Shown here in pieces: positions 26,191 to 28,656 of a stretch of 64,000 bases of DNA. The stretch is from Betaproteobacteria bacterium (GTDB lineage: Bacteria > Pseudomonadota > Gammaproteobacteria > Burkholderiales > CAIKXV01), in assembly GCA_947458265.1 (NCBI GenBank), contig CANGYF010000015.1, positions 1 to 64,000 of the forward strand. Reading direction: 5' to 3'. The notes beneath the pieces are model-generated. The model worked only from the letters and a program-made list of their open reading frames with translations, was not told the DNA's origin and made no database searches. Both the position numbers and the translations under genes were made by a program. The first letter of the stretch is position 1, and the number at the start of each line of letters is the position of its first letter.

Positions 26191-26352
26191 ATGAACCTCT
26201 CACCGACCCCGCTTGCCGCCGCACTCGCCGGCCTGTTCTCCGCGCTGGCGCTGCCGGCTGCCGCAGCCGGGCTCACGCCCGGCATCACTGCTCGGCCTTC
26301 ACCCCCGCCTCGACCACGATCTTCCCGAACTTCATCGACTCGGCCCGGATGA
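26191..26352 (+). pseudogene. Possible 5' remnant of an exported-protein gene
   Basis: Two bases after the TSUP stop, an ATG opens a frame whose first 30 residues look like a signal peptide (MNLSPTPLAAALAGLFSALA, then LPAAAAGLTPG). From about 26285 the same bases are the 3' end of the oppositely oriented Bug gene, and the frame becomes Pro/Arg/Ser-rich until a stop at 26350. This suggests the beginning of a secreted-protein gene cut off when the Bug gene came to lie here. Chance is possible. Confidence 0.35.
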
Positions 26353-27277
26353 ACTCGCGGAACTGATCCGGCGTGGTCGGCGACGGCTCGAAGCCGTTCT
26401 CGCGCAGCTTGGTCGCGATCTCCGGCACCTTCAGCGCTGCTACTGCCGCGCCGTTCAGAGTCTTCACGATCGCCGGTGGCGTGCCGGCCGGCAGCATCAG
26501 TCCGAAGAAGTTGATCACCTCGAACCCGGCGAGCCCCGGGGTGTCCGAGATCGGTGGCACGTTGGGCAGTGCCGACACGCGCGTGGACGAGGTCACGCCG
26601 ATCGCGCGCAGCCGGCCGCTCTCGATGAATGGCAACGCCGCGCCGATCGACACGAAGGTCATCGTGATGTGCTTGCCGACGACGTCCGCGATCTGCGGGG
26701 CGGCGCCCTTGTAGGGCACGTGGATGATCTTCACGCCGGCCATCCGGTTGAACAGCTCGCCGGTGAGCTGCTGCGGGTTTCCGATGCCGCTGGACGAGAA
26801 CGTGAGCTTGCCCGACTGCTGCTTCGCCCAGGCGATCAGCTCAGCGACGGTGCGCGCCGGTACGTCCGGGTTCACGGCCAGCACGTTTGGCACGCGTACC
26901 ATCATCGTCAGCGGGATGAGGTCGGTGTCCCAGTCGTAGGCCATCGGCTTGTACAGGTGCGGGTTCACCGCCACCTCGCCGGAGTTGGCGAGGATGGTGT
27001 AACCGTCGGGCTTCGACTTGGCGACGAACTGCGTGCCGATCATGCCGCTGGCGCCGGCGCGGTTCTCGACCACGATCGGCACGCCGAGCGTCTGGCGCAT
27101 GTGTTCGGCAACCAGGCGCGCGGTGAGGTCGGTGCCGCCGCCCGCAGGGAAGGCCACCACCATGCGGATCGACTGGCTCGGAAAGGCCTGGGCATGCGCG
27201 GCGCCGGGCAGGGCCGCCGCGACCATGGCGATCAGTACGGCACGGCTGCGACGGGTGTTCGATGGCGAGCGATTCAT
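26285..27277 (-). CDS. Bug/TctC-family periplasmic binding protein
   Basis: A 330-residue orphan solute receptor starting at the ATG at 27277, with signal peptide ending VAAALPGAAHAQAFP, then RMVVAFPAGGGTDLTARLVA, GVPIVVENRAGASGMIG and KIIHVPYKGAAPQIADVVG. It is transcribed alone, divergent from the selenoprotein gene and convergent with the TSUP block, and replaces the end of a possible older gene at its 3' side. No linked enzyme gives a clue to the ligand. Confidence 0.92.
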   Translation of the reverse strand: MNRSPSNTRRSRAVLIAMVAAALPGAAHAQAFPSQSIRMVVAFPAGGGTDLTARLVAEHMRQTLGVPIVVENRAGASGMIGTQFVAKSKPDGYTILANSGEVAVNPHLYKPMAYDWDTDLIPLTMMVRVPNVLAVNPDVPARTVAELIAWAKQQSGKLTFSSSGIGNPQQLTGELFNRMAGVKIIHVPYKGAAPQIADVVGKHITMTFVSIGAALPFIESGRLRAIGVTSSTRVSALPNVPPISDTPGLAGFEVINFFGLMLPAGTPPAIVKTLNGAAVAALKVPEIATKLRENGFEPSPTTPDQFREFIRAESMKFGKIVVEAGVKAEQ

Positions 27278-27416
27278 CGCTTCGGTCCTCCTCGATTGGG
27301 AAAGCGGGTCGCCTGTCCCGTTGGCGACTCTCGACACCGCGAGCGTACATGGCCGCGCTGAACCCGTGGCAGGCTGCGAACCGGTAAGCTGGCGGCCTGA
27401 CTTGAAAGGAGCTTCC

Positions 27417-27635
27417 GTGGACATCAGCATCACGTATTGCGGCGCCTGAGGGTACCAGGCACGGGCCGCCAGTCTGGCGGCCGAACTCGCGCGGGACTTC
27501 AGCGCCCGCGTCACGCAGGTCAAGTCGAGTGGCGGTGTGTTCGAGGTCGAGGTCGATGGCCGGCTCGTCTACTCGAAGCGCTCGACGGGACGCTTCCCGC
27601 GCGCGGGTGAAGTGGCAGAGCTGCTGCGCGGCTGA
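27417..27635 (+). CDS. SelW/Rdx-family selenoprotein (UGA = selenocysteine at residue 11)
   Basis: Reading from the GTG at 27417 through an in-frame TGA (27447-27449) gives 72 residues: VDISITYCGA, then U, then GYQARAASLAAELARDF. The downstream part SSGGVFEVEVDGRLVYSKR and TGRFP is the SelW/Rdx family signature, with the thioredoxin-like CxxU redox motif at 8-11. A good AAGGAG site lies 5 bases before the GTG. A perfect hairpin follows the TGA at the distance expected of a bacterial SECIS. A simple stop here would leave a 10-residue peptide in front of a conserved reading frame. The family role is thiol redox; the partner is unknown. An asparaginase gene starts 13 bp later. Confidence 0.82.
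27464..27482 (+). promoter_or_regulatory. SECIS-like hairpin after the in-frame UGA
   Basis: GGCCGCCA-GTC-TGGCGGCC is a perfect 8-bp stem with a 3-base loop. The loop starts 22 bases after the TGA and its first base is G. Both fit the published bacterial SECIS rules (loop 16-37 bases from UGA, a G among the first two loop bases). It lies inside the coding frame, as bacterial SECIS elements must. Confidence 0.7.
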
Positions 27636-27648
27636 ACGATCGACTTAC

Positions 27649-28656
27649 ATGACCCAGACATCCCTTCCAAAAGTCGCCATCCTCGCCACCGGCGGCACCA
27701 TCGCAGGACGCGCCGGTTCGAGCCTGTCGCACGAGTACAAGGCGGGCTCGGCGACCGGTGCCGAACTGGTCGAGGCGGTACCGGAGCTTGCGCGCGTGGC
27801 CGATGTGCAGGTCGAGCAGGTCTGCAACATCGCCAGCTCGAACATGGTGTTCGAGGTCTGGCGCTCGCTGAGTGCGCGGATCGATGCGCTGTTCTCCAGC
27901 GACCCCGACCTCGCGGGCATCGTCGTCACGCACGGCACCAACACGCTGGAAGAGACGGCGTACTTCCTGAACCTCACCGTGCGCCACGATCGGCCGGTCG
28001 TGCTGGTGGGTTCGCAACGGCCGGCGACGGCGCTCAGCCCGGACGGTCCGCTGAACCTGGTCAACGCGGTGCGCGTGGCGGCCTGCCCGGACTCCCGCGG
28101 CCGCGGCGTGCTGGTGATGCTCAACGACGAGATCAATGCCGCGCGCGACGTCACCAAGACCAACACCTATCGCGTCGAGACCTTCCGATCGGGCGACCTC
28201 GGCTTCATCGGCTATGCGGATGCCGACCGGATCGCCTACTACCGGCGTCCCGAGAAGCGGCACACGGTCGATTCCGAGTTCGCGGGCGAGCCGGTCGGCG
28301 ACCTGCCGAAGGTCGAGATCGTGTACGGCTATGTCGAGTCGGACGCCAGGGTCGTGATCGATGCGCTGCGCGCCGCCGGCACGCGGGGCTTCGTGTTCAC
28401 CGGCACCGGCGCGGGTATGCTGTCGGATGTCGAGAAGGACATCGTGCGCGAATCGCGCGAGCGCGGCGATGGCATCGTCTTCGTGCGCTCGAACCGGCTG
28501 GGCAACGGTCGCGTGCTGGCCCATGGCGAGCACGACGAACTGGGCATCGTGCCGGCGGACAACCTCAACCCGCAGAAGGCGCGCATCCTGCTGATGCTCG
28601 CGCTGTCGCGCGCGCACGATCCGGCCGGGATGCGGCGGATCTTTGCGCAGTACTGA
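27649..28656 (+). CDS. L-asparaginase (type II-like)
   Basis: Hydrolyses asparagine (possibly glutamine) to the acid and ammonia. The 335-residue product starts at the ATG at 27649. The first catalytic threonine is in ILATGGTIAGRAG (Thr17), and the second motif IVVTHGTNTLEETAYFLNL holds the Thr of the Thr-Lys-Asp triad. VLVGSQRPATALSPDGPLNL and MLNDEINAARDVTKTNT are also typical. There is no signal peptide, so the enzyme is probably cytoplasmic despite the type II-like sequence. It lies 13 bp after the selenoprotein. Confidence 0.93.
   Translation: MTQTSLPKVAILATGGTIAGRAGSSLSHEYKAGSATGAELVEAVPELARVADVQVEQVCNIASSNMVFEVWRSLSARIDALFSSDPDLAGIVVTHGTNTLEETAYFLNLTVRHDRPVVLVGSQRPATALSPDGPLNLVNAVRVAACPDSRGRGVLVMLNDEINAARDVTKTNTYRVETFRSGDLGFIGYADADRIAYYRRPEKRHTVDSEFAGEPVGDLPKVEIVYGYVESDARVVIDALRAAGTRGFVFTGTGAGMLSDVEKDIVRESRERGDGIVFVRSNRLGNGRVLAHGEHDELGIVPADNLNPQKARILLMLALSRAHDPAGMRRIFAQY

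Follow-up and report, generated by a model that had tools for sequence, protein, structure and literature searches.

A very probable SelW-like selenoprotein gene, with a bSECIS-type hairpin, in a Burkholderiales genome

Is the UGA at the eleventh codon of a short betaproteobacterial reading frame a stop, or is it read as selenocysteine (Sec)? The frame occupies positions 27417–27635 of the plus strand in a 64,000-nucleotide stretch of contig CANGYF010000015.1 (assembly GCA_947458265.1, order Burkholderiales), the whole of which we call the window, and a sequence-only reading had proposed it as a SelW-like selenoprotein gene linked to a neighbouring asparaginase. Bacterial Sec insertion, as described in passages of a 2026 review (PMC13188914), has SelB with Sec-tRNA bind a hairpin and decode UGA. 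That SelW-like proteins are an established kind, as the earlier reading held, agrees with passages of PMC1088965, where they are among the known bacterial selenoproteins already in 2005, and of the 2026 review, where they are 'predicted with high confidence'. Since the relevant part of a 2006 survey gives fdhA as the only selenoprotein gene in Sec-decoding Betaproteobacteria (PMC1794560), the window's host would be an addition, though the kind of protein is known; later surveys may already report SelW in this order. We found no mention of SelW in the consulted part of PMC5029168.

The reading frame and the Sec machinery of the genome

The frame starts at GTG 27417, 5 nt downstream of the Shine-Dalgarno-like AAAGGAG (27405–27411, plus strand), meets TGA at codon 11 (27447–27449) and continues through 61 sense codons to a final TGA stop at 27633–27635. 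Reading the inner TGA as Sec gives a 72-residue protein, VDISITYCGA-U-GYQARAASLAAEL...ELLRG, in which the CxxU motif CGA-U forms residues 8–11. Scored with a residue in place of the UGA, positions 3–71 of the protein match the Rdx domain PF10262 with 70.9 bits (cut-off 22.6, E = 1.1e-19), TIGR02174 gives 65.3 bits (cut-off 34.2), and NF041051 (SelTWH_Campy) gives 89.7 bits, barely exceeding its cut-off of 88; because these scores lie above their cut-offs, the family match is not due to chance. Both the proposed frame with its CGA-U motif and the proposed ribosome site are thus present. The expectation that ordinary gene finders would miss the gene held for the mechanical list of open reading frames of the window, from which it is absent, but not for the NCBIfam models used by NCBI for protein naming, which exceed their cut-offs when the UGA is read through. 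A profile of 31 Sec-type sequences also matches the solved Rdx/SelW structures 2fa8 (Atu0228; 3.3e-16), 2obk (1.2e-10) and 2npb (selenoprotein W; 2.3e-9), a likeness at the level of the sequence profile. Upstream lies a divergent minus-strand gene at 26285–27277 (an open reading frame of 26285–27523 with an inner ATG at 27277), which we take to resemble a tripartite-tricarboxylate receptor protein gene.

The genome that carries the window (4.0 Mb in 33 contigs, 97% complete) holds all four of the Sec genes that the sequence-only reading had named, so the machinery is not absent. The genes selA (C18:20392–21729, 588.4 bits), selB (C18:18472–20367, 431.8 bits) and selC for tRNA-Sec (C18:18315–18406, 72.9 bits; tRNA-SeC with anticodon TCA by ARAGORN) are clustered on contig C18, and selD lies on contig C4 (L018, C4:104922–105860, 411.3 bits). 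The selD frame has a single in-frame TGA, at GGG-U-GCKL, so that SelD itself is probably a selenoprotein; a bulge-free search found only a weak hairpin (−1.8 kcal/mol) after this TGA.

Conservation of the UGA was followed at three distances. In a search of named genomes with six peptide patterns, none of which spans the UGA codon, TGA stood at the CxxU site in all 69 close relatives, drawn from at least 10 phyla (labelled Pseudomonadota, Acidobacteriota, Gemmatimonadota, Planctomycetota, Actinomycetota, Myxococcota, Campylobacterota, Bacillota, Thermodesulfobacteriota, Cyanobacteriota and others). Because this search, which includes copies from two of the genus genomes (G002 and G008), covers close relatives and divergent Cys forms lie beyond its reach, it indicates a Sec-type character for this SelW subfamily but says nothing of the kind for Rdx proteins at large. 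Within the family, 11 genomes were compared, all of one genus and several only 83–89% complete. The SelW search matched six of them, each with one TGA, one of these matches (G006) covering residues 1–26 only, and a further remnant (G003) was found only via its asparaginase, so that five genomes (the window genome, G001, G002, G004 and G008) have a full-length selW, two have a truncated one, and none was found in the other four. The UGA is kept in all five full-length copies. Downstream of it, the window sequence differs from the four congeneric copies with dN of 0.147–0.265 and dS of 0.632–1.037 (Nei-Gojobori). As dN is well below dS, the frame behind the UGA appears to be under purifying selection, and the random substitution that the earlier reading associated with a dead gene is not seen among full-length relatives.

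At the level of the order, a SelW match was present in 81 of the 399 genomes sampled, 14 with UGA at the site (G006 with its truncated copy included) and 67 with the Cys form only. SelB scored above cut-off in 11/14 of the former versus 14/67 of the latter (Fisher p = 7e-5); among the 318 genomes without a SelW match it did so in 80. The three UGA-bearing genomes without SelB above cut-off were G001 (84% complete), G008 (83%) and G068 (96%). One genome placed in the Cys group for this association, G390 (1.3 Mb, no SelB above cut-off), has TGT at the CxxC site and an in-frame TGA a few codons downstream; this copy, L154, is perhaps a pseudogene or an error.

The Cys forms that could be compared directly are 23 loci, because only 30 of 83 order-level matches came with loci. 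These Rdx-type proteins (CTQC-RWLLRAAW type) were found by the same protein search and have CxxC at the site, but group in a single clade that excludes the Sec forms (100/100 support; tree of 103 rows and 81 columns, whose deep branching is not trusted), and so look like a separate subfamily and not like recent Cys versions of selW. The tree also sets apart, with 100/98 support, a second UGA-containing SelW-type group in the order, of ALRV...GQFD type (L153 and L155–L159, from G068, G111, G144, G015, G064 and G147). Two SelW sequences from cyanobacterial/Obscuribacter MAG contigs (L080, L084) fall inside the clade of the window's genus, joined to L078 with 98/93 support on few columns, a placement for which gene transfer, misbinned contigs or an error in the tree would each account.

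The hairpin downstream of the UGA

The sequence-only reading had pointed to a hairpin whose loop begins with G 22 bases after the UGA, and this hairpin is there, at 27464–27482 on the plus strand: GGCCGCCA-GUC-UGGCGGCC, with eight base pairs, a GUC loop closed by A-U (apical A-GUC-U) and the loop G at 27472. The hairpin alone has an energy of −15.3 kcal/mol. We applied directly the bSECIS constraints given in the relevant part of PMC13188914, namely a loop of 3–9 nt, a stem of 4–16 bp, G in the first two loop positions, a spacing of 16–37 nt and an energy of −7.5 kcal/mol or lower, and the window hairpin lies within all of them (8 bp; GUC or A-GUC-U; 22 nt; −15.3 kcal/mol). Rfam returned no match for it. 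Taken by itself the hairpin is not striking, with z = −0.64 for the 56-nt fold, p = 0.026 in a synonymous shuffle and an average of 5.57 of the 8 pairs in the simulations, so its weight comes from comparison.

For that comparison we used 97 loci, 74 with TGA and 23 with Cys, in which the G002 and G008 copies were entered as L077 and L078 and from which the truncated G003 and G006 copies as well as the six order-level TGA loci of G015, G064, G068, G111, G144 and G147 were excluded. In the same register, the TGA loci form on average 7.1 of 8 pairs versus 5.5 in synonymous-codon simulations, with 17/74 at p ≤ 0.05, whereas the Cys loci form 3.6 versus 3.3, with 0/23 at that level. When the TGA loci were reduced to 29 non-redundant ones (below 75% nucleotide identity) and amino acids were held fixed, 193 of 232 possible pairs were observed versus 145.8 (sd 5.1) simulated, a total that none of 2000 simulations reached; for the pooled Cys homologues the corresponding figures are 82/184 observed, 74.6 simulated and 31 of 500 simulations as high. 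Across 71 distinct sequences, 88.6% of cells are paired versus at most 51.4% in slid registers, and 51 cells show double changes versus 17.2 after shuffling, a shuffle test that is inflated by relatedness. The strict −7.5 kcal/mol rule, applied to bulge-free hairpins, passes 49 of the 74 TGA loci and fails 25, and passes 4 of the 23 Cys loci. G occupies the loop column in 74/74 TGA loci and also in 23/23 Cys loci. RNAalifold on the 71-row alignment predicts just four of the eight pairs (columns 20–23 with 31–34), and among the five congeneric copies invariant codons are more frequent in the hairpin (5/7 versus 12/32), but not significantly so (p = 0.21). Overall, the hairpin is conserved beyond coding need.

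The other explanations of the UGA can be weighed against these data. If the gene were dead, or the UGA a sequencing error, the codon would mark a nonsense change of a gene that once had Cys here, whose codons are one base away, and decay does occur within the genus, where selW is truncated in two near relatives, one of them with TGT at the site. Against this stand the UGA in every one of the 69 relatives and the five full-length genus copies, from many different assemblies, the low dN relative to dS behind it, and the separate clade of the Cys homologues, which together make it extremely improbable. A reassigned code or a suppressor, with UGA read as Cys or Trp, would likewise leave the frame open, but the selW and asparaginase genes both terminate in TGA, so UGA serves as a stop in this genome; with genes for tRNA-Sec, SelA, SelB and SelD present, and a hairpin excess that accompanies the UGA and not the Cys homologues, we give this explanation almost no credence. 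The hairpin could also be a by-product of the alanine-rich stretch RAASLAAE in a GC-rich genome, with Sec inserted through another signal or not at all. The window-only simulation, which retains most of the stem, speaks for a coding origin, but the pairing over the 29 non-redundant loci was never matched in simulation, and slid registers lack the compensatory changes seen in this one; a by-product is very unlikely.

Given the Sec machinery, the purifying selection and the conservation of both UGA and hairpin, 27417–27635 is very probably a genuine SelW-like (Rdx) selenoprotein gene, and we infer that its UGA is decoded as Sec in vivo. Ribosomes would initiate at GTG 27417, and SelB with Sec-tRNA(Sec), bound to the hairpin at 27464–27482, would place Sec at UGA 27447 instead of allowing termination, yielding a protein of 72 residues whose redox motif is C-G-A-U. 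The product most likely works as a small oxidoreductase of thiol/selenol type, for which the analogy with SelW suggests a link to glutathione; the protein's redox function (CxxU, possible glutathione link) and its partners would be those suggested by the family, as treated in part of PMC1088965.

With other bacterial SelW-like selenoproteins (PF10262/TIGR02174), as they appear in passages of PMC1088965, PMC1794560, PMC2398784 and PMC13188914, the predicted protein shares the Rdx domain and N-terminal CxxU, and its gene shares the coding-region bSECIS 16–37 nt after the UGA and the accompanying Sec machinery genes; it differs in its betaproteobacterial host order, its GTG start and its local asparaginase neighbour. 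In Campylobacter jejuni, translation of SelW (CJnc60) past the UGA was seen by Ribo-seq and proteomics, according to the relevant part of PMC11955535, so Sec decoding is more than an analogy for the family. Both are small SelW-type proteins with a Sec codon, but the hosts are distant, the likeness is drawn from the NF041051 score and a description, and the window copy is known from its DNA alone.

The asparaginase neighbour and the loss of selW within the genus

A type II L-asparaginase gene (27649–28656, plus strand; TIGR00520 above cut-off, PF00710/PF17763) begins with ATG 27649, only 13 bp behind selW, and encodes 335 amino acids. So short a gap had prompted the suggestion of a redox link, the two genes share a strand, and the adjacency is indeed kept in two relatives, G003 and G006, whose orthologous asparaginases are 93% and 92% identical with open frames and whose upstream regions are shared with the window. 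In both, selW has decayed and the asparaginase has not: the selW start lies 182 bases before the asparaginase versus 232 in the window, and the frame stops after 61 codons, without the C-terminal part of Rdx. The G003 alignment by blastn passes through the selW region with a net loss of 77 bases, and the truncated copy has TGT at the Sec site and 6/8 stem pairs. For G006, blastn with window positions 27493–27636 gave no match, and its copy retains the UGA and 8/8 stem pairs, with one loop base changed. Among the 11 genus genomes the adjacency occurs in the window genome and these two only, while G002 and G004 have selW and the orthologue of the asparaginase on different contigs. Beyond the genus genomes' own comparison, a tblastn search with the asparaginase over 83 SelW-bearing loci (L072–L076, L077–L145 and L153–L161, in which one contig appears as both L072 and L077, another as both L074 and L078, and L154 has the Cys form; flanks at most about 6–9 kb and shorter at contig ends) found it at one, namely G006. 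Adjacency with both genes intact was not found to be conserved, a functional redox unit of SelW and asparaginase is highly improbable, and the asparaginase was rejected as a conserved selW partner after the genus, upstream-region and 83-locus comparisons. It appears instead to be a neighbour in one small lineage, outside the selW mechanism.

The truncation of selW in two near relatives, together with the four genus genomes that gave no match, shows that selW is dispensable in this lineage. Despite their loss of selW, G003 and G006 still have SelB and a TGA-containing glutaredoxin-DinB gene.

A glutaredoxin-DinB gene beside selABC

In the window genome, a gene for a glutaredoxin-DinB fusion (PF00462 and PF12867) adjoins the selA-selB-tRNA-Sec cluster on the minus strand (L010:8772–9536; G000:C18:21774–22535) and encodes 254 residues. 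Its UGA (L010:9504–9506) falls at the glutaredoxin U-x-x-C site and is followed by a hairpin with an A-GUU-U apex. A paralogue, 39% identical in protein, lies at G000:C1:86983–87723 (L173). Some match to the fusion was present in 44 of the 399 order genomes. Near-full-length matches numbered 50 in 35 genomes, and 42 of them, in 27 genomes, had one TGA; all 22 matches within 10 kb of selB were among those with TGA. SelB scored above cut-off in 25 of the 27 genomes with a TGA form versus 3 of the 8 others. The hairpin sequence is nearly invariant: of the 22 TGA members compared (L162–L183, out of 42), 21 carry GAAAGAGTTTCTTTC equally far from their UGA, and the paralogue L173 departs from it at a single base. 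The stretch is missing from L184, the single Cys member examined out of eight. The 2026 review (PMC13188914) does not use the word 'DinB' in its main text, and a literature search for a glutaredoxin and DinB selenoprotein, judged by title, returned nothing relevant; this predicted selenoprotein may be undescribed. A search for Sec-type FdhA with TIGR01591 alone gave seven matches, one above cut-off and none with a stop in the matched range, and inspection of the above-cut-off match for the motif found nothing.

With these results a betaproteobacterial order gains a well-supported predicted selenoprotein gene, where the consulted part of the 2006 survey lists formate dehydrogenase only (PMC1794560), and the most unusual part of the initial claim, the asparaginase coupling, falls away. 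The results also give a local picture of selenoprotein loss within one genus, where selW ranges from full-length through truncated to not found. What keeps the Sec trait in place may be the glutaredoxin-DinB gene next to selABC, with its nearly invariant hairpin: we see about an even chance that in this Burkholderiales lineage the trait is sustained by the glutaredoxin-DinB fusion, together with SelD and an accessory SelW, the last being lost in some species, and not by formate dehydrogenase, the gene named in that part of the 2006 survey.
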